A DNA stretch of 64,000 nt from Planctomonas sp. JC2975 (GTDB lineage: Bacteria; Actinomycetota; Actinomycetes; Actinomycetales; Microbacteriaceae). The stretch is from NCBI RefSeq assembly GCF_012985205.1, contig NZ_JABEKS010000001.1, positions 2,046,001 through 2,110,000 on the forward strand. The letters run 5' to 3'. The notes under the pieces are model-generated. The model saw nothing but the letters and a program-made list of their open reading frames with translations. It searched no databases and was not told where the DNA came from. The position numbers and the translations under genes are program-made. This document shows, one piece after another, positions 38,169-61,023 of this stretch; positions within the stretch are counted from its first letter, which is position 1, and the number at the start of each line of letters is the position of its first letter.

Positions 38169-38244
38169 GGCTCTGTAGCTCAGTTGGTAGAGCGTTCGAC
38201 TGAAAATCGAAAGGTCACCGGATCGATGCCGGTCGGAGCCACCA
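38169..38244 (+). tRNA. tRNA-Phe (GAA), integration target
   Basis: 76 nt including an encoded CCA. Acceptor GGCTCTG/CGGAGCC, anticodon loop CTGAAAA (GAA), T-stem ACCGG/CCGGT. The T-loop reads ATCGATG, so position 54, nearly always T, is A. The 3' half (from 38207) is the repeated attachment core of the elements downstream, and its 3' end may have been replaced by an element-borne copy. Confidence 0.95.
38207..38244. repeat. Attachment-site copy 1 (3' end of tRNA-Phe)
   Basis: 38 bp identical at 36 positions to 59817-59854 and clearly related to 49982-50024. In all three copies a related terminator and an integrase 3' end (minus strand) follow on the right. Left end of element A. Confidence 0.85.
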
Positions 38245-38251
38245 AGTAAAA

Positions 38252-38284
38252 CCCCCGATCCCACTGGGAATCGGGGGCTTTTTT
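38252..38284 (+). terminator. Intrinsic terminator after tRNA-Phe
   Basis: CCCCCGATCCC / GGGAATCGGGGG stem (one bulged A) followed by a run of six T. Degenerate copies of the same hairpin sit after the att copies at 50028-50063 and 59859-59879, so it travels with the att site. Confidence 0.9.
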
Positions 38285-38318
38285 GTCTCTGCCTCGGGAG
38301 TCCCTTGGAGTCGTTTGA

Positions 38319-38560
38319 CTACACTTTGACTACACCTGAGTGATACGCACCAGCGTTCATCTCGACTGCAACGGCGTCACGGTGATGGTCGAAGTGGTCG
38401 GCGTAGACGTCGAGTGTCATCGTTGCGGGGCGCGCCTGAACATTTGTTGCACCGACTTCACGTTTACTCCCGTTGACGCTGCGGGGGACGCAGCGGTGTG
38501 TCGTAGGTCGTGAGGAGTCAGCCTTGAGAAAGTCGGGTCCTTCGCGCAAAGGAGCCGACA
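38319..38560 (-). pseudogene. Tyrosine integrase remnant 1 (C-terminal part)
   Basis: Encodes, in two frames, pieces matching the last 70 residues of the intact integrase at 59923-61023: TFSRLTPHDLRHTAAS and VNVKSVQQM in one frame, then TMTLDVYADHFDHHRDAVAVEMNAG in another. A 1-bp deletion near 38440 causes the shift; homology stops near 38560. The direct repeat TTTGACTACAC (twice, 38314-38335) overlaps its end. From 38561 to 38778 I see nothing recognisable. Confidence 0.85.
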
Positions 38561-38778
38561 CAATGCGGGGCGCGATCGCGTAATCGCCGACCGCGCCCAG
38601 CCCGCATTCAGCCCTCCAGACACCACCTGCCGCCGCGACTCGGCGTAAACCCGGTCGCGCCCAAAAGCGCTGTTGGCTCCTGCGGGGGCAGACTCCCTCG
38701 CAACAGAATCCCTAGGAGCGATCAGACAGCGAGTTTGGTGTTCGGGTCCGAACAGCGGCGTCGTCACTCACAGTGCCT

Positions 38779-39279
38779 TCAGTTCGAAACGATTTTCAGA
38801 ACGTGCCTGTGCCACACCAAGGGATTGCCACTCTCATCCGCTGTGATCGCATGCACCTTCAACACGATGATGTCGTGGTCCCCGGCTGGGTAGGCATGCT
38901 CGACAGAGCACTCGAGCCAGATCGGGGCATCGTCCATGAACAAAGCGCCGGACTCCGTCACCGTATGACCCACGCCCGTCAGCCTGTGAAGACGGTCGCG
39001 TGACGCGAGCTGCCTGATGATGCCGACATGGCGCTCGCCCAGGATCGAAACACCGATCACCGGCGCTCCAGCAAGCACCGGCCAGGTGGTCGAAGTGCGT
39101 TGCACAGCGAAGGAGACCATCGGTGGTTCGTGAGAAACGCCAACCGAGAACGACGAGGCGACCATAACCAGTGGCACGCCCGACTGGATCGCCGCAATAG
39201 CCGCTATGCCAGAGGGAAAGCCTTCGAAGGCCGCGCGCATTCGTTTCGGGTCGCTGACGAAACCGACCGCCATGCTCAT
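38779..39279 (-). CDS. Flavin reductase (DIM6/HpaC family)
   Basis: A 166-residue flavin-reductase-like protein starting MSMAVGFVSDPKRMR. Family marks: FPSGIAAIAA, VPLVMVASSFSVGVSHEPPMVSFAVQ and FMDDAPIWLECSVEHAYPAGDHDIIVLKV. It should supply FMNH2, made with NAD(P)H, to the two monooxygenases upstream in the same direction. It is 106 bp from the nearer monooxygenase, with a perfect palindrome between them, so it may be separately controlled. Confidence 0.9.
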   Translation of the reverse strand: MSMAVGFVSDPKRMRAAFEGFPSGIAAIAAIQSGVPLVMVASSFSVGVSHEPPMVSFAVQRTSTTWPVLAGAPVIGVSILGERHVGIIRQLASRDRLHRLTGVGHTVTESGALFMDDAPIWLECSVEHAYPAGDHDIIVLKVHAITADESGNPLVWHRHVLKIVSN

Positions 39280-39336
39280 GGTCGTCTCTTCGTGACGCAC
39301 GTGGATTGGTCCCGCCCGACGTCGAAGAACGCGAAT

Positions 39337-39355
39337 GTGCATTGGTTAAATGCAC
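39337..39355. promoter_or_regulatory. Inverted repeat GTGCATT-N5-AATGCAC, candidate operator
   Basis: Perfect 7-bp arms, 58 bp upstream of the flavin reductase start. A related half-site (ATGCAC next to ATGCCC) appears in the divergent region at 42425-42440 between the monooxygenase and transporter operons. No regulator gene is present in element A except the transposase-like protein at 47846, so the binder is unknown. Confidence 0.45.
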
Positions 39356-39385
39356 GGAAGTGCCGCCATCGCCCTACGGCCACTT

Positions 39386-40855
39386 CTAGACTCCGGCCAC
39401 TCGCGAAAGGCTCTTGGTTGTATCGAAGTACCCGGCAGGCCTGGCTAGCCCGAAGTGATCCCGGAAGGTGTGGCTCTCATATGTTCGCCGATAGATTCCA
39501 CGGCGCTGCAGTTCGGGCACCACTTGATTTGTGAACCGGTCCAGCTGGTCCCAGAGCCCGGGCGACTGCACGTTGAAACCGTCGGCCGCCCCTGTGCTGA
39601 ACCACTCTTCGAGCTCGTCGGCGATCGCACTCGCCGTGCCTACGACAACCGGGAACCCGTCGATGATGGCCGAATAGAGCAGGTCTTTTACCTTTGCTGC
39701 CCTGAGGCCGGCGACGGTACGCCCGGTGCGCTCGAAGACGAGGTCAAGCAGATGCCTGCCGTAGCCGTCGAACTCGTCGGCGAGTCGCTCTGGCAGATCC
39801 GATTCAAGCTGAAGCGACGTAAGGTCCACGCCGATCTTGGCGGAGAGTGATCCCAGGTTTCGCGTTCCGTACTCCAACGGGGCGCGACCGGCCGGTCCCG
39901 CGGCGAACTCCGCCCAGTAGGCGGCGTCGCGACCGCCCCAGACGATGTCGTCGTCGAGGGGCAGGTAGGAGTTCAGCTCGTCGTAGAAGGCGATGGCGGC
40001 ATCCCTGGTGTCCCCGATGATGGGCGTGATGCCCGGGAGGAAGAAGACTGCCTGAGGGTCGCGGCCGGCCTCGGCGACACGGGCGCGGACATCCTCGTTG
40101 AACGCGATGGACTCGGCGATCGTCTTCGGACCCGTGAAGTTGATATCGCCGTGCTTCGCGGTGAGCTGCCGCGAGAGCTCGGATGCTCCTGCGTAAAGGA
40201 GAGGCGGGTGCCCCTGCGGTGGCCGGCGCAGCGGCAGCGTACCCTCCACACTGAAATGCTTGCCCCGCCAGTTCAGCCGATGGATCTTGCCGTCGTCGAC
40301 GAAATGGCCGCTCTCCTTGTCTTGGATGTAAGCGTCGTCTTCGATGCTGTCCCACAGCCGCTTGACCAGCCCGATGAACTCGTCAGCTCGTTCGTAGCGG
40401 CTCTCTCCGCCGAGGTCTGGCAGGCTGAAGTTGCGGGCAGCAACGTCGGAGGCTCCTAGCACCACGTTCCAGGCCACCCGCCCGTTCGAAAGGTGGTCGA
40501 GCGATGCGCTCAGCCTGGCCAGGATGTACGGGTCGTAATAGGTGGGATGTGCCGTCACCACCAGCCCGATGTCCTTTGTTTGCAACGCGAGCTGCGACGC
40601 GAGTGTGAACGGCTCGAGCCGGCCCGTGTTGTGCGTCGTGCGCCACTGCTCGCGCACGATGTCACCCGGCAGCGTGTCGCCTAGGAAGAAGAAGTCGAAC
40701 TTGGCCTGCTCCACCGTTTTGGCTGCTCGCAGCGCGTACTCGAAGTCGAATGCGCCGTCGGCTGGAGCGTTCGGCAACCGCCATCCGCCCCAGTGGGTGC
40801 CGTTCACCCAATACATGTAGCCCAGGTGGAGCTGTCGCTCTGCTTTTGCGTTCAT
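39386..40855 (-). CDS. FMNH2-dependent monooxygenase, NtaA/DszA class (1)
   Basis: A 489-residue group C flavin monooxygenase with the bacterial-luciferase fold. Typical stretches: FDFFFLGDTLPG, EPFTLASQLALQTKDIGLVVTAHPTYYDPYILAR, SNGRVAWNVVLG, SRYERADEFIGLVKRLWDS and GHPPLLYAGAS. The family (nitrilotriacetate, dibenzothiophene-sulfone and alkyl-sulfone enzymes) cleaves C-N or C-S bonds with FMNH2 and O2. The start at 40855 follows GAGAG; an ATG 30 bp earlier is possible. Its substrate is not predictable, but the sulfur-related neighbours favour C-S cleavage. Confidence 0.9.
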   Translation of the reverse strand: MNAKAERQLHLGYMYWVNGTHWGGWRLPNAPADGAFDFEYALRAAKTVEQAKFDFFFLGDTLPGDIVREQWRTTHNTGRLEPFTLASQLALQTKDIGLVVTAHPTYYDPYILARLSASLDHLSNGRVAWNVVLGASDVAARNFSLPDLGGESRYERADEFIGLVKRLWDSIEDDAYIQDKESGHFVDDGKIHRLNWRGKHFSVEGTLPLRRPPQGHPPLLYAGASELSRQLTAKHGDINFTGPKTIAESIAFNEDVRARVAEAGRDPQAVFFLPGITPIIGDTRDAAIAFYDELNSYLPLDDDIVWGGRDAAYWAEFAAGPAGRAPLEYGTRNLGSLSAKIGVDLTSLQLESDLPERLADEFDGYGRHLLDLVFERTGRTVAGLRAAKVKDLLYSAIIDGFPVVVGTASAIADELEEWFSTGAADGFNVQSPGLWDQLDRFTNQVVPELQRRGIYRRTYESHTFRDHFGLARPAGYFDTTKSLSRVAGV

Positions 40856-40916
40856 GCGTCTCTCGTTTCGTGTCTCTGCATGCATGTTCGGAGGCTTCTC
40901 TCACGCGCTCCGACGG

Positions 40917-42329
40917 TCAGCTCAGGCCGAGGTTGTCTTCCAGACGAGTCGACTCGTATTCGGTGCGGAAGATGCCCCGACGCTGAAGTTCGGGCACGAC
41001 ATGGTCGACGAAGAAGTCGGCCGGGCCGCGATGGTACGGCGGGAAGAGTTGCACGCCGTCGAGGACCTCCTCTTCGAGGTGCTCCTCCAACCAGTCAGCG
41101 AAACCGATCGCGTCGCCGACGTATCGGCCCTGTCCCGCCTGCCGCTTCTGCATCGCGGCGAAGAAGTCCCGCACCGTTAAGTGCTCGTCGTCGCCAAGGG
41201 CAGCGAGTACGTCTCGCACAACATCGACGTTGGAGTGGCGCCTCTGCCTCGACGGCTGTGTCGGGTAGCCGTTGACGGTCGGGTCCTCGGCAGCGACATC
41301 CCCGTTGTCCAGAAGTGCAACGAGACGGTCGGGATCAATTCCCTCCGCGCCGAGCGCGACAGCCAACGGGACATCGGCGGCAAAGCGGTCAGCGGTGATC
41401 CCGAGTGATTGGGCGAGCACGAGCGGCAGCTCGACCTCACGTTGATAGTTCAGGATCTGGCGATACTTTGCCCGGGCCTCCTGGACCGTACCGCCAAGGT
41501 AGAACGTGACGCCGGGAAGAATGAGGAAGGCATCCGGATCGCCGCCCGCCGCCGCGACACGGGCCTTGTGCTCCGCGTAGTGCTTCTTACCGGCCTCCAG
41601 TCCGAAGTAGGGCGAGAACCTGGCCTGCGCGTACTTCGCTCCGTACTCCAGCGACTCCGGAGAAGTCCCGACGTGCACGTTCGGAATGTGTCGCTGCACT
41701 GGCGGTGGCACATTCAGCGGCCCTCGCACCCGGAAGAACTCGCCTTCGTAGTCGATCGGATGCCAGGACCCGGGCCTGATCAGAATGCCGTCCGCCTTGT
41801 TGTCCAACAAGAGGTCGTTGTCCCAACTGTTGTGCAGCAGCGCGTAGAGGGCTTCAGTGAACTCTGCGGCTCGCCGATACTTCGACTCCTGGTCGGGCAG
41901 CGGGTACCCCTCAAAGTTCTCGACCGGCCCACCCTGACGATCGATGCCGAACACAACGTTGATGGCAGTACGCCCCTCGCTGAAGCGGTCGAGAGTGGCC
42001 AGTTGACGCGCGACGTGGAACGGATGCTCGAACGACGAGTTGTAGGTGAGCAGGAATCCGACGTGATCGGTGCGCGCGGCCGCGTGGCCGGCGAAAACCG
42101 CACTGTCCCAGCGGAAGACGCGGTTCAGCACGTCGGGCTCCGACGCGAGCGAACTTCCGGCGAACAGGTAGTCGAGCTTGCCGCGTTCAGCGGTGATGGC
42201 GAGATCCGAGATGACGCTTGGGTCAGTGAGGCCACGGTTGTTGGACTCGGGTAGGCGCCACGCATCCTGGTCCCAGCCCGTGCCGTATGCGGCAAGCCCG
42301 ATTCTGAGTCTCTTGCGCTCTGCAGCCAT
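40917..42329 (-). CDS. FMNH2-dependent monooxygenase, NtaA/DszA class (2)
   Basis: A 470-residue relative of the downstream enzyme with the same fold but clearly diverged sequence: KLDYLFAGSSLASEPD, DHVGFLLTYNSSFEHPFHVARQLATLDRFSEGRTAINVVFGID, SKYRRAAEFTEALYALL, IPNVHVGTSPESLEYG and a matching C-terminus (VVPELQRRGIFRTEYES, like VVPELQRRGIYRRTYES). Good ribosome site GGAAGG. Two such enzymes side by side suggest sequential oxidation, as with DszC/DszA, or two substrates. First gene of the minus-strand operon, 61 bp before the other monooxygenase. Confidence 0.9.
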   Translation of the reverse strand: MAAERKRLRIGLAAYGTGWDQDAWRLPESNNRGLTDPSVISDLAITAERGKLDYLFAGSSLASEPDVLNRVFRWDSAVFAGHAAARTDHVGFLLTYNSSFEHPFHVARQLATLDRFSEGRTAINVVFGIDRQGGPVENFEGYPLPDQESKYRRAAEFTEALYALLHNSWDNDLLLDNKADGILIRPGSWHPIDYEGEFFRVRGPLNVPPPVQRHIPNVHVGTSPESLEYGAKYAQARFSPYFGLEAGKKHYAEHKARVAAAGGDPDAFLILPGVTFYLGGTVQEARAKYRQILNYQREVELPLVLAQSLGITADRFAADVPLAVALGAEGIDPDRLVALLDNGDVAAEDPTVNGYPTQPSRQRRHSNVDVVRDVLAALGDDEHLTVRDFFAAMQKRQAGQGRYVGDAIGFADWLEEHLEEEVLDGVQLFPPYHRGPADFFVDHVVPELQRRGIFRTEYESTRLEDNLGLS

Positions 42330-42523
42330 CTGTCGGCCTTCCTGTCATACCGGTGAGTGTCATTGCCTTGACAGGCTAGATAACGTGCAAGTTGTACTGC
42401 GTTGTCGTGCGAAATCTACGGTCATGCCCATGCACATTCCGTAACGTTGCTGGCCATTGATACAAGAACCTCCATACGCTGACCGGCGTTCACCTCATCC
42501 GCCTGACACGTCTCGGAGCACCC
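42330..42523. promoter_or_regulatory. Divergent promoter region of the organosulfur cluster
   Basis: 194 bp between the monooxygenase operon (minus) and the AKR-transporter operon (plus). TTGACA occurs at 42368-42373 on the plus strand, but no good -10 lies 16-18 bp after it. The GTGCAT-like half-site lies at 42425-42440. Both operons must start here. Confidence 0.5.
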
Positions 42524-43537
42524 ATGGCCCCCAGCGGCATCCTTCCTTCCGGCTATCGCACGCTCGGTTCTACCGGTCTCGTGGTCTCGGAGCTCGGCAT
42601 CGGCGCCAGCACGTTCGGCCGCTCGGGTATGAAGGCGACATCGGCCAAGCAGGTTAACGGCATCGTGGATGCAGCACTCGAGCTGGGTGTGACGTACTTC
42701 GACCTCGCCGAGCTTTACGGCGACAGGCCAGGACTCAGCGAGGAACTCTTCGCCACTGCGCTGCGGGGACGGCGCGACGAGGTCGTCATCGGAACCAAGT
42801 TTGGCGGCGCGCTCGGCGGCGCGCTCGGTCCGTCGTTCGCGACCGGCGGTTCACGCAAATACATCGTGCGTGCCACGGAGCATGCCCTGCGCCGGCTCGG
42901 CACCGACTACATCGACCTGTACCAGATCCACTTCCCCGATCCGCTCACGCCGATCGAGGAGACGCTGTCCGCTCTCTCCGATCTGGTGACTGCCGGCAAG
43001 GTGCGTTACGTCGGGGCCTCCAATTTTCCGGCCTGGACGCTTGTCGACGCCGACCACACAGCACGGGCGAACGGTTGGTCGCGCTTCGCGTCGACGACCG
43101 ACGAGTACAACTTGCTCTGGCGGCGCCCCGAGCAGGAGTTGATCCCTGCGCTGCAGCACATCGGCGCGGGCTTCATCCCCTATTTCCCTCTGCAGAACGG
43201 TCTGCTCACCGGCAAATACTCGCGGGATTCGGCACCGGAGGGCGCCAAGATCACGAACCTGAAGCGTCACCTGCTGAAGGAGGCCCCGTGGGATGCGCTC
43301 GAGCGCTTCGTCGCGTTCGCCGATGCACGCGGGGTGTCGCCGGCATCCGTCGCTCTTGGCTGGCTTCTCGCGCAGCCGACCGTCTCCACCGTCATCGCCG
43401 GAGTTACCGGCCCGGAGCAGGTACGTGCCAACCATGCCGCGGCCAAATGGCGACCGACCGTCGATGAGGAGGCGGAGCTGCGCAGCCTCTTCGAGGGCGA
43501 TCTCTCCGGCGGGCCGGGCAAGGTCACCGCCGACTGA
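42524..43537 (+). CDS. Aldo-keto reductase
   Basis: A 337-residue AKR barrel. The catalytic set is visible: Asp and Tyr in YFDLAELYGDR, Lys in VVIGTKFGG and His in YQIHFPDP. The NADP-binding C-terminus is GVTGPEQVRANHAA. In sulfonate oxidation, monooxygenases leave an aldehyde, and an AKR reduces it in the sulfoquinovose monooxygenase pathway; this gene could do the same. First gene of the plus-strand operon, 70 bp before the permease. Confidence 0.92.
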   Translation: MAPSGILPSGYRTLGSTGLVVSELGIGASTFGRSGMKATSAKQVNGIVDAALELGVTYFDLAELYGDRPGLSEELFATALRGRRDEVVIGTKFGGALGGALGPSFATGGSRKYIVRATEHALRRLGTDYIDLYQIHFPDPLTPIEETLSALSDLVTAGKVRYVGASNFPAWTLVDADHTARANGWSRFASTTDEYNLLWRRPEQELIPALQHIGAGFIPYFPLQNGLLTGKYSRDSAPEGAKITNLKRHLLKEAPWDALERFVAFADARGVSPASVALGWLLAQPTVSTVIAGVTGPEQVRANHAAAKWRPTVDEEAELRSLFEGDLSGGPGKVTAD

Positions 43538-43607
43538 GCGACGGCTCTTCGCGCGATCCCGCACGACAACGACGAGCATCCCCATCACAGCAACGAAGGA
43601 GACGGCC

Positions 43608-44459
43608 ATGGCAATCGACCAGACGGCGGCAGCCCTGCCGCAGTTCGACGCCCCACGTGTGGCACGAACCCGTTCCGACAGCAGGCGCTTTCGGCTGACG
43701 CGACGCACGACGGCCATCCTGATCGGCCAGGTGGCACTCGTCGTGGTCATTCTCAGCGTCGTGGAGTGGCTCGTGGACAGCGGAACGGTCGACCCCATCT
43801 ACCTCGCATCGCCCAGCCAGGTGATCGCGAACCTACCGAATCTCGTCGTTGAGCAGAACCTCTTCGGCAACCTGCTCGTCACGCTCGGGGAGGCCATCGC
43901 CGGTGTCGCTGCAGCCTTCGTGCTCGGCGTGTCGACCGGCCTCTGGATGGGTCTATCGCTGTCGGCAAACCGATTCCTGAACCCGTTCGTCGCAGCGGCG
44001 ATGGCCGTGCCGAAGGTGACGATCATCCCGCTGCTCACGCTGTACTTCGGCATCGGCGTGCTGCACAAGGTGGTCATCGTCTTCCTCTTCGGCTACTTCC
44101 TATTCGTCTACAACACCATCGCGGGCATCCGCCAGGTGCAAGAAAGCCACGTGAAGGTGGCACGCGCATTCGGCGCGAGCCGTGGCCAAGTGGTGACCAA
44201 GGTGATCCTCCCGTCGGCTGCAGCTTCGATCATGGCGGCCGTGCGCGTGGAGACCGGCACGGCACTCGTCGCCGCGCTCTTCGCCGAGATCGTCGCCTCC
44301 AAGGCGGGTCTCGGAAACCTGCTCAACCGGGCGTTTGGCCTCTATGACACACCGTCGATCTTCGGACTGGTGCTCGTCATCACGATCGTCTCCGTGCTGC
44401 TCATCGCGGCCGTCAACCTGCTCGAGCGAACAGTGCTCCTCAAGTGGAAGCACCAGTGA
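43608..44459 (+). CDS. SsuC/TauC-type ABC permease
   Basis: A 283-residue permease with about six helices. The EAA loop is VKVARAFGASRGQVVTKVILPSAA. The ATG follows GAAGGAGACGGCC. Family members import sulfonates, taurine, nitrate or thiamine precursors together with an NrtA/SsuA-like binding protein; the following gene is one. Confidence 0.92.
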   Translation: MAIDQTAAALPQFDAPRVARTRSDSRRFRLTRRTTAILIGQVALVVVILSVVEWLVDSGTVDPIYLASPSQVIANLPNLVVEQNLFGNLLVTLGEAIAGVAAAFVLGVSTGLWMGLSLSANRFLNPFVAAAMAVPKVTIIPLLTLYFGIGVLHKVVIVFLFGYFLFVYNTIAGIRQVQESHVKVARAFGASRGQVVTKVILPSAAASIMAAVRVETGTALVAALFAEIVASKAGLGNLLNRAFGLYDTPSIFGLVLVITIVSVLLIAAVNLLERTVLLKWKHQ

Positions 44460-44535
44460 CGGCGGCGGCGACGCATCCATCCGTCGACCACACGCACCCC
44501 CATTCCCGCATCACACACGAACCGAAGGAACTGCA

Positions 44536-45600
44536 ATGACCAGCACCATCTCGCGCCGCACGCTGCTCGGCGGCGGTCTCGGCGGCGTCCTCGCCCTTTC
44601 CACTTTCGCGCTCACCGGATGCTCATCGGCGGCCGCCGAGAACGGCTCGGGCTCGGCATCGGGCAAGCTCGACACCATCACGCTGGCTGACCCGTCGTCG
44701 ACGTACACGCAGCTGCCCATCTTGTACGGCGAGCAGAAGGGCATCTGGGCGAAGCACGGTCTCCAGCCGAAGTTCGAGACGCTCGACTACAACAGCCAGC
44801 TGTCTGCGGTGGCCAGCGGCGACCTCCTGTTCGCGTTCGGCGCGACGACCTCGTTCTTGCAGGCGGCGCAGAAGGGGTCGCCGATACGGCTTGTGGCCTC
44901 GGCGTTCCGTAGTAAGGGTCCATACTGGCTCATCGCCAAGAAGGGCATCAGCAAGATCAGCCAGCTGAAGGGTAAGACCCTGGGCACGGGCGGAGCCGGA
45001 TCCGCGATGGAGACATACGCCAAGGTCATCCTCACGGACAACGGACTCGACCCGGCGAAGGATCTCACCCTCGTTCCCGGCGGATCCACGGACCAGACCC
45101 TCTACACCGCCGTGAGGACTGGACAGGTGGATGCAGTCATGATCCACCAGCCGTACGCAGCTCTCGGCGAGCTCGACGGCATCACGACGACGCTCGCCCG
45201 CGGCTGGGAGTATCTCCCCAAGTACCACACCGGTGCACTCATCTCCGGCACGTCCACGATCACGAAGAGCCCCGACGTCCTGAAGCGTGCGCTGGCCGCG
45301 TACTTCGAGATCTACACCTACACAAGGGCTCACGAGTCCGCCTACATCCCATGGCTGCAGAAGCAGCTTAAGACCATCGATCCGCGAGCGGTCAATGCGG
45401 CGATCGAGCAGGAGAACGACATCTGGGACAGCAACCCGGCGATCGACCTCACAGCCATCAACGAAAGCCAGAAGATCGAGGTGGCAGCCGGGCACCAGAC
45501 ATCCGTCTTCGACCCGAAACCGTACATCGACACCGACCTGATTCCACAAAAGTATGTGAAGCCGTTCTCCTATCCGACCGCAAAGCCAACGGAGGGATGA
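44536..45600 (+). CDS. SsuA/NrtA-like substrate-binding lipoprotein
   Basis: A 354-residue binding protein. The signal has twin Arg (SRRTLLGGGLGG) and a lipobox (LTGC), so it is probably a Tat-exported lipoprotein. The mature part shows NMT1/SsuA-like features: LPILYGEQKGIWAKHGL near the start, QLSAVASGDLLFAFGAT, LKGKTLGTGGAGSAMET and VRTGQVDAVMIHQPYAA. The ligand is unknown; the neighbourhood suggests a sulfonate or another organosulfur anion. Confidence 0.9.
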   Translation: MTSTISRRTLLGGGLGGVLALSTFALTGCSSAAAENGSGSASGKLDTITLADPSSTYTQLPILYGEQKGIWAKHGLQPKFETLDYNSQLSAVASGDLLFAFGATTSFLQAAQKGSPIRLVASAFRSKGPYWLIAKKGISKISQLKGKTLGTGGAGSAMETYAKVILTDNGLDPAKDLTLVPGGSTDQTLYTAVRTGQVDAVMIHQPYAALGELDGITTTLARGWEYLPKYHTGALISGTSTITKSPDVLKRALAAYFEIYTYTRAHESAYIPWLQKQLKTIDPRAVNAAIEQENDIWDSNPAIDLTAINESQKIEVAAGHQTSVFDPKPYIDTDLIPQKYVKPFSYPTAKPTEG

Positions 45601-47356: not shown

Positions 47357-47412
47357 ACGTATCTGCCCAGAAATCATCTCTGCCCTGAACTGCGCGACGA
47401 GAAGGAACGACA

Positions 47413-48795: not shown

Positions 48796-48796
48796 C

Positions 48797-51597: not shown

Positions 51598-51609
51598 CCC
51601 TGAGCACCC

Positions 51610-52566: not shown

Positions 52567-52669
52567 GAATCACCTCCGCAGTAGTTCGACCGGATTCCAC
52601 GTCGAACGATCAAAGCTTCGATGCCGCCTGGCGAATGAAGTCCTTCGCTGGGCGGCAATCCAGGCAAAA

Positions 52670-52834
52670 TCAGATCTTCGCACCCTTGTTGCGCTGTCGG
52701 AGGATTCCAAAGATGAGCGTGCCGAGGAACAGCACGATTCCGATGATCGCGAGCCACAACAGGCCGTGGAACGCGAAACCAACGACCGACGCCACCACCC
52801 AGACCACGAGCAAGATCACAAGTACTACCCACAC
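52670..52834 (-). CDS. Small two-helix membrane protein
   Basis: 54 residues: two hydrophobic helices (about 2-20 and 24-45) and a basic tail (RQRNKGAKI). The GTG at 52834 has a good ribosome site (AAAGAGGTAAGCCC), which decides this start; the frame stays open further upstream (to 53059) but that part has no site and mixed character. Function unknown. Confidence 0.55.
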   Translation of the reverse strand: MWVVLVILLVVWVVASVVGFAFHGLLWLAIIGIVLFLGTLIFGILRQRNKGAKI

Positions 52835-53006
52835 GGGCTTACCTCTTTCTTTGTCTTTCGTTCTCCGAACGCCCACTTGGGCGACGGTGATCTCGATGCA
52901 TTCTGCAAAGAGGTTGTGCGCCTGAAGCCAGTCGGCGACGGCGTCGTGGACCGCGCGACACGTCGTCGCCGAGGAATCCGTGCTGGTGCCAATTGCGGCG
53001 GAGATG

Positions 53007-53104
53007 TCACAGCCACCGTTTGCGCTTGAAGGCGGCCCATAGCCCGAAGCCCGTGGCAAGCGTGAGGAGCAGAGCGAAGGGATAACCCCATCTCAGACGG
53101 CGCC
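53007..53104 (-). pseudogene. CorA Mg2+ transporter, C-terminal fragment
   Basis: Translates as RWGYPFALLLTLATGFGLW then AAFKRKRWL and a stop: the last membrane helix and basic tail of CorA-family transporters. Everything before it, including the GMN motif, is missing; the fragment is joined to the 3' end of the desaturase gene. A short copy of this junction also lies at 51123. Confidence 0.6.
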
Positions 53105-53105
53105 A

Positions 53106-54203
53106 CTAGATGCTCATCCGCCGCTCGAGTATGGGGCAGGCGAATGGATCCTTTTCTCCGAGGCCCACCCGATTGATGTATCGGAGGACGATCGCATAGG
53201 ACTGCACGAGACTCGTTTCCACGTACGGCACATCGCGTTCCGCGCAGTAGCCGCGCACGATCGGCGCCGCCCGTCGCAAATTTGGTCTGGGCATCGATGG
53301 AAACAGGTGGTGCTCGATCTGGTAGTTCAGTCCGCCCATAGCAGTGTCGAGAATTCGGCTACCGCGAATATTCCTGCTCATCATGACCTGGCGTCGCAAG
53401 AAGTCGAGTTTCATGTCCTTGGGTACGAGCGGCATGCCTTTGTGGTTCGGGGCGAACGACATCCCCATATAGAAACCGAAGAGAGCCAACTGGAGCCCGA
53501 GGAACGCGGCGGCCTTTCCCGGCGGCAACACGAAGAACACAACTCCCAGGTAGCCGAGCGTGCGCACGGCCAGGAACGAGATCTCGACTGGTCGTCGAGC
53601 AATCGGTTCACGAGAGAACACCCGGCGCACACTGGATGCGTGCAAGGAGACCCCTTCGAGGCACAGTATGGGGAAGAAGAAGGTCCCCTGGTGCGCTAAC
53701 ACCCATCTCAGAAGTCTCGGTCGCCGTTGCCCCACCTGCGCCGGGCTGAAAGAGATGACCGGCAAGTCAATATCGGGGTCGTGTCCTTCGCGATTCGGAT
53801 TCGCGTGATGCTTCGTGTGTTTGTGCTGCCACCAGCCGTAGCTCATACCGACGAAAAAGTCGCCGATGATCAGACTCATCCAATCGTTCCACCGACCTGA
53901 ACGGAAGATCTGGCGATGCGCGGCGTCGTGCCCGAGGAAAGCGGTCTGAGTGAAGAGGACCGCCATAAACAGCGCCATCATGAGCTGCCACCAGGTGTCA
54001 CCAATCATCACAAAAAGGGTGAAGCATCCGGCATAGGCGAGCGGCACAGCGATGAGCTTCGTCCAGTAATAGCCATAGCGTCGACGCATCAGGCCGGACT
54101 CGTGGATGGTGTGCGCAAGAAGCGTGTAGTCGTTCACGGCCGCGGATCGCGGCTCGACCGTTCTCACCGGACCCAGGCCGATTGGAGCCGTTGTGCTGAT
54201 CAT
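53106..54203 (-). CDS. Membrane fatty-acid (acyl) desaturase
   Basis: 365 residues, start MISTTAPIGLG after GGGGAGGACACC. Three His boxes: HDAAHR, HTKHH (preceded by WWQHK) and the front-end/omega type QIEHHLFPSMP. Four or so membrane helices, no cytochrome b5 domain. It should introduce a double bond in membrane acyl chains with O2 and an external electron donor. Complete, and the source of the fragments at 51123 and 54783. Possibly an adaptation to cold or membrane stress. Confidence 0.93.
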   Translation of the reverse strand: MISTTAPIGLGPVRTVEPRSAAVNDYTLLAHTIHESGLMRRRYGYYWTKLIAVPLAYAGCFTLFVMIGDTWWQLMMALFMAVLFTQTAFLGHDAAHRQIFRSGRWNDWMSLIIGDFFVGMSYGWWQHKHTKHHANPNREGHDPDIDLPVISFSPAQVGQRRPRLLRWVLAHQGTFFFPILCLEGVSLHASSVRRVFSREPIARRPVEISFLAVRTLGYLGVVFFVLPPGKAAAFLGLQLALFGFYMGMSFAPNHKGMPLVPKDMKLDFLRRQVMMSRNIRGSRILDTAMGGLNYQIEHHLFPSMPRPNLRRAAPIVRGYCAERDVPYVETSLVQSYAIVLRYINRVGLGEKDPFACPILERRMSI

Positions 54204-55005
54204 GGTGTCCTCCCCGTCTTCACCGCTTCCGCAGCAGGTAATGATCAGGCGGCCGGGGTCTGGGACAACCTGACGGCAGAATACGCTGCTGCGCTCATAA
54301 GAAGCTGCGGACAGTGAAACCGATCCACGGTCACCAGCTCGACTTCGTCGCGGCCGCACCCCGATGGACCTGGGTGTGCATGATCGTTTCCGGCGAACTG
54401 ATCGGGGCCGCACCGTAAGTCCTCGTCCGGCGGCCGTGGCATCAACTGGCTGTTGGCCGCTTGAGGGCGGTCCTCCTCGACCTGCTTTCACGACAAAATG
54501 GTCAAGCTGGGCTGCAACGCGAAATGAGCAGCCGCCAGCGAGCGCACCTCCTTCCTCCACGCGATCAATCAGCCAATAGATCCTCGGGGCGTTGGAGTGC
54601 GGCGTTCGCGTGGCGTTCACCCTCCCCCACCGTTTGCAGTGACTACCGGCAGGATGCCTGTGCACACAACCTGGTATTCCAGACTGGACCACTTTCCGGT
54701 GTACTTCAGCGGCTACGGCGGCGAAAGGCATCTCCGACAGGCGTGCCGCGCGTCCGTTCGGCGCTGTTCGACTGCTCGAACGGCCTTTCCTGCTCATCAC
54801 GACCTGGCGTCTCAAGAAGTCCACGCTCGATCGAGCGGCCGGTCACAACTAGCTCGTGTGCCATCGTGCAGGACGCCAGCTCCGACCGCGACGGCGACCG
54901 CCCAGGCTCTCATACAGCTGTGCGACAAGGGCCCGGCGAGGAAGGATGTCTGCGTCTTAGCTGGTCCCGGACAAGGTCTCCGGACGAGCTGCCAAATTGG
55001 GCATA
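54204..55005. other. Non-coding stretch with a desaturase scrap
   Basis: About 800 bp without a credible gene. Near 54779-54824 about 40 bp match the desaturase interior (53380-53425, encoding DFLRRQVMMSR). Long open frames here are uninterrupted only because of high GC and carry no domain. Confidence 0.6.
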
Positions 55006-55215
55006 TTAGCGCGGACTGCCGTGATCCAATCGGTCAACCCAGTGGTACGTAGGTACACGGAGCCCCAGCGGCTTCGGCGCGGCATTCAAGATGTAGTTTC
55101 CGGCACCGAACTCTATGGCCCCCGGTAGGTTCTCGACGCGCGTTACACCGTCCAGTTGCCTATCTCCATGCCAGGGTCCGCCGAAAAAGCGACAGTCATA
55201 ACCGAAACCTGACAT
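55006..55215 (-). CDS. Small hypothetical protein
   Basis: A 69-residue frame starting MSGFGYDCRFFGGPWHGDRQ and ending YHWVDRLDHGSPR. The FFGGPWHGD beginning resembles small phage- and actinomycete-borne unknowns with a GGPxDG-like start, but I cannot name a family. Weak ribosome site. The 327 bp between it and the lipid kinase (55216-55542) show nothing clear. Confidence 0.4.
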   Translation of the reverse strand: MSGFGYDCRFFGGPWHGDRQLDGVTRVENLPGAIEFGAGNYILNAAPKPLGLRVPTYHWVDRLDHGSPR

Positions 55216-55542
55216 GATGCACACCCCGTCCCGGGGTTCAGGCTCCTCGGACTACCTCGAAATGAGTCCGATCAAACCAGGCAAAACCTATTTTGAGCGT
55301 ACGCTCCGGGACCGCATATTGCGACGCCAGGCGACACTACTGCCAGGTACGAGACCGGGGAAGCCACCCGACCACTTAACCAGGGTGGTCGTCGTCCGTT
55401 CAAGGGTCGGCCGGGGTCGAACAGACGCCCGGCTATGGACGGGTGTCCGCCACGCTTCTACGGGGACGTCATCGCGGACCGAACCCGGCGACCACGGCGC
55501 CAGCACCGTTTCGTCTGGCACGGTTCGTCCGCCCGACTGACT

Positions 55543-56544
55543 TCAGGTGCCCTGGATATTGTTCGACTGATTTGGAGGTTCATTCGTATCGGGCATGCAG
55601 ATCGTGAGTGCCCGTGACCGAAGCGTGATTCGTACCCGGCAAATGGATCCGAGCCCGTCGCCGTCGAGTTCAACGTCATGAGGGGTCTCGAATCGGGCTT
55701 CGAATCGTTCCCCCTGCGCATAGGCAAGCGCTTTGAGGTCTGGAGCGAGCTGAACAATACGACGCCCAAAGCGAGTACGAGACCCCACTCCTTGCAGGGT
55801 CAAGCGTGTGCCAATGCCGGCCCAGCCGATTCGTCTTCGCGGGCGCAGCATGACCACGTCCAAGAGGCCGTCGTCCACGACGGCACTCGGAAGCAGGAGC
55901 ATGTTTCCGGTGAGAGTGCCGCAATTGCCGACGATTACGGTGTGCGCATGTGACGACCTGACGTGACCTCCATCGATCCTGTAGTCGACCTGAAACAGGC
56001 GATTGGTGATGATCGATCGTGCAATCGGCGTCACATAGGCAAGCCACCCAAGGTACTTCTTGGCAACAGCGCTTGTGTTGTTAGCCATTTCCGCGTCGAG
56101 CCCGATCCCGGCCATGACAAGAAACACTTCCGAATGTTGTTGGCGATGCGGGTTCTCCAAGTCAGCAACCGCTAGATCTATGGCGCGTGTGTTGTTCCCG
56201 AAGGCGGCACCGATCGCACCGCGAACATCATTGAGAGGTATGCCGAGATTGCGGGCGAGCAGGTTGCCTGTGCCGACAGGTACCAAGGCAAGAGGGGTAC
56301 CTGACTCATAGATAGTCGCGGCCACCGTCCGCACCGTGCCGTCGCCGCCGGCCACAACGATCACGGACGCCGCGCCCTGTAATGCCGCCTCTGCAGCACC
56401 ACGTCCTGCGTCATCAGCGCCAGTCTGATACCAGTGAGACGGCGCCCACCCAAACTGCTTTTCGTACGCCAGAACGACTGGTTGTAATCGATCTCGTGAA
56501 ATCTTGGTCGGGTTGTAGATGACAGCCGCCCGCTTCACACTCAT
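55543..56544 (-). CDS. Diacylglycerol/lipid kinase family protein
   Basis: 333 residues, start MSVKRAAVIYNPTKIS. The catalytic loop is VVAGGDGTVRTVA (about 64-76), followed by LALVPVGTGNLLARNLGIP; the C-terminal domain has VELDGDGLG. This is the DagK/YegS type, phosphorylating diacylglycerol, sphingoid bases or a related lipid with ATP. Complete. Divergent from the GAF-ANTAR pair across 262 bp. Confidence 0.9.
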   Translation of the reverse strand: MSVKRAAVIYNPTKISRDRLQPVVLAYEKQFGWAPSHWYQTGADDAGRGAAEAALQGAASVIVVAGGDGTVRTVAATIYESGTPLALVPVGTGNLLARNLGIPLNDVRGAIGAAFGNNTRAIDLAVADLENPHRQQHSEVFLVMAGIGLDAEMANNTSAVAKKYLGWLAYVTPIARSIITNRLFQVDYRIDGGHVRSSHAHTVIVGNCGTLTGNMLLLPSAVVDDGLLDVVMLRPRRRIGWAGIGTRLTLQGVGSRTRFGRRIVQLAPDLKALAYAQGERFEARFETPHDVELDGDGLGSICRVRITLRSRALTICMPDTNEPPNQSNNIQGT

Positions 56545-56806
56545 CGCCTGCCACCAGGTTGAGGACGGGAAACCCAATCCACCGCGACAACGTGATGATC
56601 CGGTTCAGTTGCCGCGACTCGTAATTGCGGCGGAGCCGACAATGGTCTCGAACCGATCATTGCGTCCTCTCCGTGCTCTAACCCGATTTGGTGTGAATCA
56701 CGAGGCAGCCGGGTCTGAAGCAACCTGTCCTCACGATACGTGTCACCCCTTGGCAATACGGGCGTACGGTGAGAGTGCGCCATCGGCGCGAAGCCTGCGA
56801 GTAGTC

Positions 56807-57517
56807 ATGAATCCGGACGGTCCCAGCGTGGACCGCGAAGCACACAACCTCCGCGCTAGCGGATCAGCCGCCGCGCTCTGTCGTCGATTTGTGAACACCC
56901 TCCCGGTAGACGGAGCATCGATATCGGTGTTCGGCATCGGGTGGCAGCAGACGACCATCGCGGCAAGCGATCGTGTTGCTGCAGCCTTGGAAGAGCTCCA
57001 GTTCGACCTAGGCGAGGGCCCACACTGGCAGGCGATCCAGACCGGACGATCGGTCTCCGTGACCGATCTGGATTCCGCTCAGTCCGACGCGTGGCCCATG
57101 TTTGCCTCTGCCGCCCTTGGTATAGGCGTGCATGCGGTGATCGCTTTGCCCCTCAAGCTTGGCGCCACCACGATCGGGGTGGTCGACCTCAACCGCCGAC
57201 TGGCCGGGCCTTTTGGCTCTGAAGCGCTCGAAACCGCGGAGACGCTGACCAGACGCACCGCCTTAGCCTCGGCTCGCTTTGCGGCTGAAACGGCACGCGA
57301 GGACGTGGTCGAAGAGTCCGACACGGCTCCCGCGCTTCGGCGCGAAGTGCACCAAGCGATCGGCATGATCGTGGTACAGCTAAACACCACAGCAACCGAG
57401 GCGTTCGCCCGTCTCCGAGCACACGCGTTCGCCTCCGGGCGTACCGTACAGGCCGTCGCGCTCGACGTAGTCAACCGCCAGCTGGATTTCGCCGCGTTGC
57501 AGGATGACGCGACGTAG
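56807..57517 (+). CDS. GAF-ANTAR RNA-binding regulator (1)
   Basis: 236 residues: an N-terminal GAF-like domain (about 15-150: PVDGASISVFGIGWQQTTIAASD, LGEGPHWQAIQTGRSV, IALPLKLGATTIGVVDL) and a C-terminal ANTAR domain (about 170-230: VHQAIGMIVVQLNTTATEAFARLRAHAF...VVN). ANTAR domains bind paired hexaloop hairpins and prevent termination. The GAF ligand is unknown. ATG at 56807 chosen to start the domain. Confidence 0.88.
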   Translation: MNPDGPSVDREAHNLRASGSAAALCRRFVNTLPVDGASISVFGIGWQQTTIAASDRVAAALEELQFDLGEGPHWQAIQTGRSVSVTDLDSAQSDAWPMFASAALGIGVHAVIALPLKLGATTIGVVDLNRRLAGPFGSEALETAETLTRRTALASARFAAETAREDVVEESDTAPALRREVHQAIGMIVVQLNTTATEAFARLRAHAFASGRTVQAVALDVVNRQLDFAALQDDAT

Positions 57518-57541
57518 ACTCACCGCATACCGGGATCAAAC

Positions 57542-58282
57542 ATGGCAAGTGCTACACGAGAGTCCAGACTCAACGCCGCGTTCGTCGCCGTCGCCGACAC
57601 ACTCACCGCGGACTACGACGTCGTCGACCTGCTACACACCCTCGTCATCGAATGCACGGACATTCTTGATGCACAGGCCGGCGGCCTCCTACTCAGTGAT
57701 CAACCCGGCGGCCGCCTGAATCTCGTCGCGTCGACCAGTGAAGACGCCGAACTCGTAGAGCTCATGCAATTGTCGGCCGGCCGCGGACCCTGCCTCGACT
57801 GCTTCGAATCTGGTCGCCCTGTCGATGTCCCAAACATTGCAGCCCGTCGCGAATCCTGGCCGAGCTTCGTGGAGATCGCGCTTGACCACGGCTTCCACTC
57901 CATGCATGCCACCCCCCTGAGACTGCGCGGCGAGATCATCGGCACAATGAACCTCTTTCGCACGCAGTCCGGCGCACTTCCGGAGCCGGATGTGGCCGTT
58001 GCGCAGGCGTTGGCCGACGTGGCAACCATTGGCATCCTGCATGAACGCATCAGCAGCAGGACACAGCTCGTAATCGAGCAACTCCAATACGCCCTCGATA
58101 GCCGAGTGCTCCTGGAACAAGCAAAGGGGGCAGTTGCGCAAGCCACCGGGCTGAGCATGGACGGTTCATTCGACGCCCTCCGCCGATACGCCCGCAACCA
58201 CAGCACCACCCTGCGAAACGTGGCTGCATCCGTAATCGACCACACCATAGACCCCGCCCACCTCACACGTCAGGTGCGATAG
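57542..58282 (+). CDS. GAF-ANTAR RNA-binding regulator (2)
   Basis: 246 residues with the same layout: GAF (about 15-160: DAQAGGLLLSDQPGGRLNLVAS, GRGPCLDCFESGRPVDVPNI, ATPLRLRGEIIGTMNLF) and ANTAR (about 180-240: LLEQAKGAVAQATGLSMDGSFDALRRYAR). A Cys pair in GPCLDC may sense redox or bind metal. 24 bp after the first copy, so the two are co-transcribed and may heterodimerise. Confidence 0.9.
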   Translation: MASATRESRLNAAFVAVADTLTADYDVVDLLHTLVIECTDILDAQAGGLLLSDQPGGRLNLVASTSEDAELVELMQLSAGRGPCLDCFESGRPVDVPNIAARRESWPSFVEIALDHGFHSMHATPLRLRGEIIGTMNLFRTQSGALPEPDVAVAQALADVATIGILHERISSRTQLVIEQLQYALDSRVLLEQAKGAVAQATGLSMDGSFDALRRYARNHSTTLRNVAASVIDHTIDPAHLTRQVR

Positions 58283-59011
58283 ACAGGACGGTGCTCTAGA
58301 GGGCTCTACTCCGAGGCGTCACGATCAAGGCTCGAAAGATGACGTGACGACACAGTTTCCTGCCGGCGCTCTGTACCAGACAACCGGGTTTCCGGGACGC
58401 GCCGCTCGAACTCATTCAGCAAGACCGCACACCGAAGGCTTGACGCCCCAGACCAGACGCTTCGGAGGGCGCGGCGCGTTTATCGGGCCCCGAAAGGGTT
58501 CAGGTCACGAGCGCCGGACAACAGGTGGACACGAAAACACATAACGGCCGTGACGCGGGTGGAGTTGCCCGTATCGGCCTCCCGATGCAGAGGGCGCGCG
58601 ATTGCCGCGCGAAGCCGTTGAACCTGCAAACGGTGCAACTCTACGTGCGCAGATGATAGAACCTCGGGATTCTCAGGACCGATCTTCAGTGTCGGATCGA
58701 TCTTGCGTTTCCGCGGAATAGCCCTCATTGTGCCAGTGGGCATCATTGGCGGCCTTCCAACGTACGGCCCTCTTCTCACGCTCTCCTAGATCAGCCCGTG
58801 AAACGGTCGTCCTTTCAGGGTGGTGAGCCTTGCTCGGCTCATCGATTCGGCCATCATCCCGATCACTTTCAGCGGTCAACCTGATCGCCTCCCTCACTAC
58901 AGTTAGCCCTGGACCTTTCGGCATCCTCCGCGTCGGACTTCCCCACACCTCGGCGCTACTGGGCTGCTGCGGCGCGAACCGACTACTGCGAGCCGGCCGG
59001 TTACTGTCGCC
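58283..59011. other. Long gap without a confident gene
   Basis: About 730 bp. Two overlapping minus-strand frames (around 58480-58779 and 58673-58948) have hydrophilic products with no domain and poor ribosome sites. I cannot support either as a gene. Confidence 0.5.
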
Positions 59012-59596
59012 TCAAGCAAACCCAACCAAACTCTGCGCTGCGTGATCCCAGAGTGAGAACTGTCCGCACTCCTCGGCTCGATCGCGGCGCGATCCATGCA
59101 GCGCAACGAACAGTCTCCCTACATGACGGATGTATCCGATGGTGCCACCGTCATTTCGCACCTCGTCGAGGTCTCCGTCAACCGCGACCAGCACGAGGTT
59201 GATCGTCTCGATGCCGGTCAGATCGTCCACGACCCTCAGCGTGACGGACTGGTCCTCGTTCGAAACGGCTTCAGGTGACGGAGCCGACGTCTCTGCTCGC
59301 GCGGGGAACGCCTTCGACGCGGCCGCATCGTGGATGCCGACAGCGCGGTAGCGGGAACCTGGTGAATGCTGGACGTCATGCCTGCCGCCGCCACCGGAGC
59401 CATCGTGAATCCCCGATCGCTCGAACTCTGCCTGCGCGGCAAGCCGTTCGCGGTCGCCGCCGTCGACGCTGGAAGAATCTGACGCGCGCGCGATCGCTTC
59501 ACCCCCACCATCCCAAGGCTCCACCGCTTCGGCGGGCTCAGCGATCGATCGAGGTAACCTTGTGGAGGCCGGCTCTCTTGTCCGAACATCGCGCAT
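59012..59596 (-). CDS. Hypothetical protein
   Basis: 194 residues from an ATG with a good ribosome site (AAGGGGGTTACTG). The first 110 residues are hydrophilic and low in structure; the last 85 look folded (SVTLRVVDDLTGIETINLVLV, then IGYIRHVGRLFVALHGS and FSLWDHAAQSLVGFA). No family recognised. The minus-strand gene ends before the remnant-rich part of element B. 59597-59816 holds nothing. Confidence 0.45.
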   Translation of the reverse strand: MRDVRTREPASTRLPRSIAEPAEAVEPWDGGGEAIARASDSSSVDGGDRERLAAQAEFERSGIHDGSGGGGRHDVQHSPGSRYRAVGIHDAAASKAFPARAETSAPSPEAVSNEDQSVTLRVVDDLTGIETINLVLVAVDGDLDEVRNDGGTIGYIRHVGRLFVALHGSRRDRAEECGQFSLWDHAAQSLVGFA

Positions 59597-59816
59597 CAGT
59601 AACCCCCTTCGGCCGTCACGCTGCGAACGTGCCGACACTCAACTCCGTGCTTCCACGGACTACTCGGGGGTTTCCGCCTTCGAGGGCGATGTGATCACCG
59701 CACGAATCAGGCTACGCTCCGGCCCCCACGACACCGGATCCCGACCTCGACTCTCAGGATCGACACCACCGTCCGACGGACACCACGCGCGCATCACGAG
59801 CCACCCAGGCCAAGTG

Positions 59817-59854
59817 TCGAAAGGTCACCGGATCGATTCCGGTCGGAACCACCA
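59817..59854. repeat. Attachment-site copy 3
   Basis: 38 bp, 36 identical to the tRNA-Phe 3' end at 38207-38244, including the ACCA end. A degenerate hairpin copy (CCCGATCCC/GGGAATCGGG, 59859-59879) and the intact integrase follow. Left end of element C and right end of element B. Confidence 0.9.
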
Positions 59855-59922
59855 AAATCCCGATCCCACGGGAATCGGGGGCCCATTTGTCTCTGCTTCG
59901 GAGGCCGCCGAAGGACTTCTGA

Positions 59923-61023
59923 CTATATTTTGACTGCACCCGAGTGCGACGCACCAGCGTTCAGGGCGACTGCAACGGCGTCCAGGTCATCGTCGAAGAG
60001 GTCGGCATAGACGTCGAGTGTCATCGCTGCGGATGCATGGCCAAGCATCCGCTGCACAGACTTCACGTTCGCTCCCGCCGACACGGCGAGGGACGCGGCC
60101 GTGTGCCGCAGGTCGTGAGGTGTCAGCCGCGGGAAGGTCTGGTCCTGCTCCATGCACCGGGCTACGGCAGCGTTGAAGATCCGGTTGCGGAAGTTGCCGG
60201 CACGGAATACTCCACCGTCCGCGCCGGCGAACACCAGGTCATCCGCGTCGCGTCCTGCGCACCGCTGCTCCAGGCCGCTGGACAGCAGATCGGGGAAGGG
60301 CACCGAGCGTCGCTCGTGGTTCTTCGGAGTGCCCCAGACGATAACACCTCGAGGTTCTGACACCGCCTGCGCGACGTCGACTCGGCGACGCTCGAAGTTG
60401 ATCCTGCCGACCTTGAGGCCGGCCATCTCGCCCCACCGCAGCCCGGTGTAAGCGAGGAAGAGGACCACGACTGCCTGTGTTCCGCACTCGGTAGCGAGCA
60501 TCCGCACTTGCGCATGCGTTAGGTACCCGTGCTCACGCTTCGCAAGTCTGGGCAGCTGGATGCCGTCAGACGGGTTGGTGATGAGCCGGCCATCTCGGAT
60601 CGCGTACCTCAGTACTCCCGCCAGCACCAGGTGAATCTGCCTGACCATTGACGGGCCAAGACGCTCGGAGAGCTCTCCGACCCAGGCCTGAACCTCGCCG
60701 TGGCGGACATTCACCAGGCTGTACTGGCCCCACTTGGGCAGGACGTACTTGTCCAGATGGAACCGGTAACCCGACCGTGTCGTCGGCTTCACCTGCACCT
60801 GCGCACGGAACCACTCCTCGGCCACCACAGACACCGGCGTCCGTGACTTGGTCGGATCCACCCATTCGCCCCTGGCCTGGCTAAGATCCACCGTGGCTAG
60901 GAACAGCTCCGCGTCCCGCTTCGTGCGGAAGCCTCGCTTCATGGTGTGACTGTGGTCCGGCTTCCGGTACTGCACCCGATATCGTCGACCCGCCGCCGTT
61001 TGGTACGCCTCCACCGACCCCAT
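59923..61023 (-). CDS. Tyrosine recombinase (phage-type integrase)
   Basis: 366 residues. N-terminal SAM-like DNA-binding domain (about 60-150), catalytic domain about 165-350 with R196 (YTGLRWGE), H303-x-x-R306 (TPHDLRHTAAS), H329 (LGHASA) and nucleophile Y339 (DVYADLF). All catalytic residues are present. The stop lies 69 bp from att copy 3, as expected for a tRNA-targeting integrase. The ATG at 61023 starts the arm-binding domain. Confidence 0.95.
   Translation of the reverse strand: MGSVEAYQTAAGRRYRVQYRKPDHSHTMKRGFRTKRDAELFLATVDLSQARGEWVDPTKSRTPVSVVAEEWFRAQVQVKPTTRSGYRFHLDKYVLPKWGQYSLVNVRHGEVQAWVGELSERLGPSMVRQIHLVLAGVLRYAIRDGRLITNPSDGIQLPRLAKREHGYLTHAQVRMLATECGTQAVVVLFLAYTGLRWGEMAGLKVGRINFERRRVDVAQAVSEPRGVIVWGTPKNHERRSVPFPDLLSSGLEQRCAGRDADDLVFAGADGGVFRAGNFRNRIFNAAVARCMEQDQTFPRLTPHDLRHTAASLAVSAGANVKSVQRMLGHASAAMTLDVYADLFDDDLDAVAVALNAGASHSGAVKI

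Follow-up and report, generated by a model that had tools for sequence, protein, structure and literature searches.

Tandem accretion of integrative elements, cis-mobilizable elements (CIMEs) and composite excision are established (PMC5704250, PMC3146451, PMC9513070). The authors of one of these reports propose that a single integrase may act on the direct repeats that lie on either side of a tandem (PMC9513070). As for the integrases themselves, a beta insertion between catalytic-domain strands 2 and 3 is a trait of the IntTn916 subgroup (PMC8138268), and in 2011 the N-terminal residues 17 and 19 of mycobacteriophage integrases were proposed to track differences in arm sequence (PMC3203893). 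We analysed a locus of Planctomonas sp. JC2975 (Microbacteriaceae), contained in a window of 64,000 nt (the whole stretch of DNA studied; contig NZ_JABEKS010000001.1, positions 2,046,001 to 2,110,000) and in the contig to its right, where positions are given as window-equivalents. Judging from its sequence, this locus is a tandem accretion of the known kind at a tRNA-Phe gene. With moderate confidence, we favour a reading in which three elements, E1, E2 and E3, accreted in tandem and the E3 integrase most likely works the outermost pair of attachment (att) sites, E1 and E2 being passengers of a composite excision.

Three elements at one tRNA-Phe gene

Four att copies, all in one orientation, bound three elements: E1 (11.8 kb, 38.2-50.0 kb), E2 (9.8 kb, 50.0-59.8 kb) and E3 (29.9 kb, 59.8-89.8 kb, about 4 kb of which lie in the window). 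The whole stack measures 51.6 kb.

38169..38244, plus strand: tRNA-Phe gene (ARAGORN); its 3' half, from about 38197, is att1
38245..49981, no strand: element E1, 11.8 kb
38250..38285, plus strand: terminator-like hairpin behind the tRNA, brought by E1; read in the sequence, repeat family D6
49982..50024, plus strand: att2, E1/E2 junction; decayed, 86% over 43
49989..59816, no strand: element E2, 9.8 kb
59817..59855, plus strand: att3, E2/E3 junction; 95% over 39, without the anticodon-loop part
59817..64000, no strand: element E3, left 4.2 kb; continues to window-equivalent 89757 (29.9 kb)

An earlier reading of the window from its letters alone (the sequence-only reading) had reported a block repeated three times, and a repeat search agreed: the tRNA-Phe 3' part, a single repeat family, stands in register at 38207, 49982/49989 and 59817, and behind each of these copies come a hairpin ending in a T-rich stretch and then an integrase 3' end on the minus strand, in register at 38328, 50098 and 59932. 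The tRNA is complete only at the first copy, as had also been said, 38169-38244 being the sole complete tRNA-Phe that ARAGORN found in the window. Its T loop reads ATCGATG, with an A in place of the usual T54; the 74-nt sequence is found without any change in several further genera.

We searched the organism's own genome (4,362,098 bases, 11 contigs, E<=0.001) with window positions 38169-38300 (132 bp) and obtained five matches: the tRNA-Phe itself, copy 2 (E 3.9e-21), copy 3 (E 1.1e-21), a fourth copy (E 4.8e-17) and one tRNA-Lys. The latter was the only full-length match besides 38169-38244, which is thus the only tRNA-Phe-like one at this threshold. The fourth copy, att4, which the sequence-only reading had proposed to look for on the right, lies 25.8 kb past the window end (genome 2135757-2135804, window-equivalent 89757-89804) and is identical at 47/48 positions. 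Chance as the source of the att copies is excluded.

It is very improbable that the region is a single element, or ordinary chromosome with scattered tRNA-derived repeats, and that no real stack exists. Such a view would be favoured by the genes common to E2 and E3, a hypothetical gene (50500-51036 and window-equivalent 67141-67595; 79.6% over 455 nt, inverted) and a small membrane-protein gene, but every copy has a hairpin of its own behind it and an integrase 3' end that differs from copy to copy, and in other genomes such copies bound single elements of 4 to 57 kb. Except for these two small genes the cargo differs between the elements, whose ends are 66-82% alike. Since the ends are alike to this degree only, E1, E2 and E3 are separate arrivals and not copies, and we rejected duplication of one element. 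We also rejected a fourth, nearly deleted element, considered from a 27-bp match left of att4, as repeats of the same kind are found there in the right ends of other elements. The GC content of the elements (E1 0.641, E2 0.618, E3 0.633, versus 0.676 and 0.681 in the flanks) gives no element order.

The right boundary and empty sites in relatives

Starting at att4 and going rightward, 90 bp (48 of core and 42 more) match the tRNA-Phe 3' end and terminator of the congener G003 at 90%; the same comparison gave 85 bp at 89% with G004, 61 bp with G001 and the core only with G002. We read att4 and the DNA to its right as the original end of the tRNA gene. Judged by gene order, G001 is a clear empty site, the only one among the four congeners. 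No integrase match occurs in the 17.5 kb fetched around its tRNA-Phe, and homologues of the right flank (window-equivalent 94593, 97206, 97624 and 98813) are collinear there from 2.9 kb after the tRNA, with the homologue of 95732 farther along; homologues of 90003-94458 were not seen in the region fetched.

The suggestion that empty sites could be defined in close relatives thus held for G001 and gave no clear result for the other three. G003 has no integrase at the tRNA and also no right-flank homologue within 16 kb. The homologue of 91532 lies about 11.7 kb from the tRNA in G004, and in both G002 and G004 the DNA beside the tRNA resembles, by eye, other integrase 3' ends with arm repeats, that is, other remnants. 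The E1 DNA at 39386-42329 has matches of at most 381 nt in the four congeners (67%, G002), and for the E3 defence region no match there exceeds about 50 nt. The locus presents what is expected of an accretion array: its copies of the target 3' end are collinear and more than two in number, the gene is whole at one end only, the units are of separate origin and one relative is empty. Together with the tRNA 3' end and terminator at att4, this bears out the original claim of three stacked integrative elements.

Integrases of the array

38319..38541, minus strand: remnant of the E1 integrase, limited to the 3' end and with broken frames; 80% over 224 nt to the E3 gene
50098..50240, minus strand: E2 integrase remnant; 82% over 143 nt to the E3 gene
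59923..61014, minus strand: E3 integrase, tyrosine recombinase, 363 aa, complete; PF00589 (E 1.7e-22), motifs, model

E3 alone has a whole integrase, in agreement with the earlier description of the first two as fragments (remnants of about 224 and 143 nt versus an open frame of 363 aa). The similarity of the E1 remnant covers, in broken frames, about 75 C-terminal residues of the E3 protein, and that of the E2 remnant covers fewer. The E3 protein has the catalytic R..H..R..H and Y motifs, and its N-terminal domain is predicted to contain strands at 2-6, 9-17 and 23-29 and a helix at 32-47 (mean pLDDT 81, pTM 0.61), the three strands and one helix being an IntTn916-like trait. The best PDB matches of the model were the Tn1549 integrase, then lambda Int and XerA.

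Relatives of this integrase (E<=1e-60) were found in 95/398 genomes of the family, its own included. In the 29 loci of relatives inspected (L054-L082), the integrase lies beside tRNA-Phe in 13 and beside another tRNA in 12 (Lys 3, Leu 3, Thr 2, Ser 2, Arg 1, Met/Thr 1), the remaining 4 having no tRNA in the locus. When identity to the E3 integrase is at least 62%, 11 of 12 loci adjoin tRNA-Phe; in the remaining one, the broken L065, the distance to a tRNA-Phe is 2.3 kb.

Arm repeats at the element ends

The elements carry two 8-bp repeats 11 bp apart in the interval between tRNA end and integrase, which in this array lie at distances of about 70 and 81 bp from the tRNA; the same type of repeat may recur at the far end, about 120 bp left of the core.

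38316..38334, plus strand: E1 left arm repeats, TGACTACA twice, 11 bp apart, both perfect
59920..59938, plus strand: E3 left arm repeats, TGACTATA and TGACTGCA, one mismatch each

By analogy with lambda, Tn916 and mycobacteriophage attP (PMC8138268, PMC3203893), we infer that they are arm-binding sites of the integrase. A scan for pairs of TGACTACA over 114 kb around the array (both strands, at most 4/16 mismatches) gave four places only, all of them element ends: E1 left (0 mismatches), E3 left (2) and E3 right (1 and 0). The right ends of E1 and E2 have no arm pair within about 500 bp, and the left end of E2 has at best one degenerate copy. Good core and intact arms are thus found together at the outermost sites only, att1 with the E1 arms and att4 with the right arms of E3, whereas at the inner junctions the arms are damaged or absent and the cores more decayed.

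Correspondence between integrase residues and arm bases

The first set comprised 110 integrase loci (including L054-L162 and window 59923-61014), with the best 80 of 501 confirmed relatives kept, and formed 70 clusters at 75% identity. A clear repeat pair was present in 49 of these clusters and not in 21; the arm types other than TGACTACA were first seen by eye, then recovered by script. By integrase class, the arms are TGCCCACA for D25, TGGCCACA for Q25, TGACCACA for T25 and TGACTACA for M25.

Residue 25 predicted arm base 3 in 48/48 clusters having that residue. Base 3 is C with D (26 clusters) or E (2), G with Q (6), S (3), K (2), N (1) or A (1), and A with T (5) or M (2); the single cluster gapped at position 25 has T. 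Among 363 alignment columns, column 25 ranked first for base 3, with a normalised mutual information of 0.63, followed by column 361 (0.33), which falls where the repeat overlaps the end of the integrase gene. Its score was reached by 0/10,000 shuffles, which ignore relatedness, the rule having been read from the same data. For base 5, the strongest association is with residue 15 (0.81), which probably sets it, R giving C, Q giving T and L, I or A giving A; the Q to T case comes from one cluster, that of E3. Both residues lie in the N-terminal sheet, 15 on the predicted strand 9-17 and 25 on the predicted strand 23-29.

The rule for base 3 was written down before the search for a later set of 80 viral loci (L184-L263). 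In that set, 71 loci were below 75% identity to every integrase of the first set; they formed 55 clusters, 31 with a repeat pair and 29 covered by the rule. The prediction was correct in 28/29 cases and wrong for L263 (shuffle mean 22.7, 0/10,000 as high), but 25 of the 28 were D to C, so that the new information lies mainly in three K to G cases. For base 5, all 29 predictions were R to C and thus provided no discriminating case.

The E3 integrase has Q15 and M25, the class that goes with TGACTACA arms. We see about even chances that a short residue-to-base code of this kind exists and that the array is one composite 51.6-kb element, its left end a relic of E1, its integrase and right end those of E3. 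If so, the code would allow att sites to be assigned from sequence to the integrases that can own them. The nearest precedent that we found in the literature holds the idea in embryo (PMC3203893, 2011), and the use of arm repeats as a clue for assigning ends may be new.

Other stacks in the family

We surveyed 30 genomes, picked mostly for such integrases and thus biased, at E<=0.01. Two of them (G279 and G067) had two extra collinear att copies, 12 had one extra copy at a distance of 4 to 57 kb on the same strand of the same contig, and three had one on another contig; none was recognised in 13. A family-wide att search found a match in 388/398 genomes, but at most two candidates per genome were scored, so that it yields no array frequencies. 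The 18 partial far copies surveyed start at tRNA position 32 or before in 15 cases and at 37-39 in three, like att3.

The G279 array (L171, C22; oriented 1522-12462) is arranged like the one described here, with a whole Q25 integrase, TGGCCACA-type arms that match it at either outer end and, at the inner att (91%), an arm of a foreign, CAGGCACA-like type. No integrase of the E3 clade was found at the G067 site among the E<=1e-60 matches, and this array neither supports nor refutes a composite reading. In another genome (G065, L105), the copies at 1464-1535 and 11167-11242 lie 9.7 kb apart and the second, in contrast to the half copies that are usual, matches a whole tRNA-Phe, 83% over 1-76.

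Order of arrival and present working of the stack

Because good core and arms coincide only at the outermost sites, and because the class of the E3 integrase fits TGACTACA, the stack looks like an E3-driven composite. The sequence shows that three different elements, whose tyrosine integrases are directed to tRNA-Phe, accumulated one behind another at this gene and that every one of them supplied a copy of the tRNA 3' half together with a terminator. E1 and E2 have lost their integrases and probably also their competence as separate units. In the proposed mechanism, the E3 integrase would act on att1, with the intact arms of E1, and on att4, with its own intact right arms, and the 51.6-kb stack, if it moves at all, would excise as one composite, with E1 and E2 as cis-mobilised passengers.

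Several observations weigh against this reading. We identified no excisionase gene, and the role of the arms comes by analogy. Under the strict script rule, an arm pair was found at 6/16 far att copies outside the window (the second copy of L105 being left out by the script since it matches the whole tRNA); three more (G136, G190, G020) show one by eye and the remaining ones do not. The third array, G067, lacks such arms. The contrast between the att2 and att4 cores is by itself borderline (Fisher p 0.056). Finally, the left arm of E3 is damaged at 2/16 positions only and att3 differs at 2/38 only, and E3 might therefore leave alone.

The sequence-only reading had noted that the farthest element should be the oldest and most decayed, an expectation that holds only if every insertion took place at the tRNA and integrases were lost in a clock-like manner. 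This textbook order, with newcomers at the tRNA, E3 oldest, E1 youngest and integrases lost at random, would agree with the perfect left arms of E1. Relative to tRNA positions 39-76, however, the cores differ at 7/38 positions in att2, 2/38 in att3 and 1/38 in att4, and it is disfavoured by this reversed gradient: the right half of att2 would have served as the functional end of the tRNA gene up to the arrival of E1, and still no copy is more decayed than att2, while att4, the oldest in this order, is the least decayed. In addition, E1 has no recognisable right arm and the surroundings of its integrase are the most damaged. We consider this order quite improbable.

Two ways out of the apparent paradox had been offered, insertion into an internal att site or a single integrase serving the whole array. 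The former, in which the stack grew away from the tRNA (E1 first, E2 into the far att of E1, E3 into that of E2, E3 being the youngest), accommodates the decay gradient att2 > att3 > att4 and the broken integrases of E1 and E2 beside the whole one of E3. Two modest objections are that the right half of att4, as original chromosome, would have been open to decay from the first insertion onward but differs at 1/38 against 7/38 for att2, and that the left arms of E1 are perfect although its integrase is dead. We regard growth in this direction as rather unlikely and as the less supported of the two options, although it is compatible with the composite reading, which concerns the present working of the stack. 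The single integrase is the better supported one, with the reservation that E3 might act for itself. The near-perfect right half of att4 weakly suggests that the stack arrived recently.

Cargo of the elements

In E1, two NtaA/DmoA-family monooxygenases scored above the NCBIfam cut-off; an aldo/keto reductase, a sulfonate-type (Ssu/Tau-like) ABC transporter and a sulfurtransferase (46517-47356) scored below it, and a rhodanese-domain protein lies at 49034-49753. E2 carries a drug/metabolite transporter (DMT), a fatty acid desaturase, a diacylglycerol kinase and two GAF-ANTAR proteins. Around its desaturase gene, the pieces 51111-51228, 53080-53137 and 54075-54126 are repeated and 88-98% alike, pointing to a broken second copy or a rearrangement. 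With att copies at both ends and broken integrases, E1 and E2 are candidate CIMEs, att2 and att3 being decayed.

In E3, a TrwC-type relaxase/helicase gene at window-equivalent 70013-72715 scored above the Pfam cut-off; the element also contains IS481 genes, an AAA-domain protein and part of a cation-efflux gene. Window-equivalent 76603-87383 (L008 603-11383) holds R, S and M genes of the type I restriction kind, together with a further methyltransferase-like gene and an RmrA-like regulator. No type IV secretion system match was found among the E3 genes scanned, which were part of its open reading frames. With its whole integrase and TrwC-type gene, E3 is a candidate integrative and mobilizable element (IME). 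The relaxase profile match starts at 42-43 in E3, versus 3 in G279; we rejected an interruption of the gene by IS481, given that the match has the same start in a second copy in the same genome and in both G242 copies.

Discussion

The array is a further example, supported by an empty site and a fourth att copy, of how elements collect at tRNA sites and of how dead elements may stay mobile through a neighbour. The arm code may be more useful than the array itself: if it holds in bench experiments, it would predict integrase-att partners in stacked islands, which otherwise requires excision assays. Three points had escaped the sequence-only reading: the fourth copy, the resulting extension of the third element by about 26 kb beyond the window end, and the arm repeats. 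No stack at tRNA-Phe in Microbacteriaceae surfaced among the titles and abstract beginnings of the papers listed in the one literature search made for it, and one may nevertheless have been described.

The closest systems are accretions of integrative and conjugative elements (ICEs) or IMEs with CIMEs, which share successive insertions at a gene end, residents that lack an integrase but keep att sites, and composite excision (PMC5704250). Here, by comparison, three units are found at tRNA-Phe, and the surviving integrase is in the unit farthest from the tRNA. Streptomyces AICE/DAICE (actinomycete ICEs and related elements) at tRNA-Arg are also from Actinobacteria, with one to three elements and a remnant at one tRNA (PMC9513070), but AICE are functional elements with traB, whereas E3 is IME-like: it has a TrwC-type gene, and the genes examined include no conjugation apparatus. 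The ssrA islands of Dehalococcoides resemble our array in their many tandem islands with copies of an RNA-gene 3' end, some without integration genes, and differ in using a serine recombinase and a tmRNA gene (PMC3146451).

On the side of the integrase, the IntTn916 subgroup likewise combines an N-terminal arm-binding domain of three strands and a helix with tRNA targets (PMC8138268), a likeness of motifs and predicted fold. The attP of Cluster K mycobacteriophages has pairs of arm repeats around the core as well, of 11 bp in that case (PMC3203893). The proposal made there concerned a few phages; here, one residue-to-base rule would extend over 49 integrase clusters and a later set.

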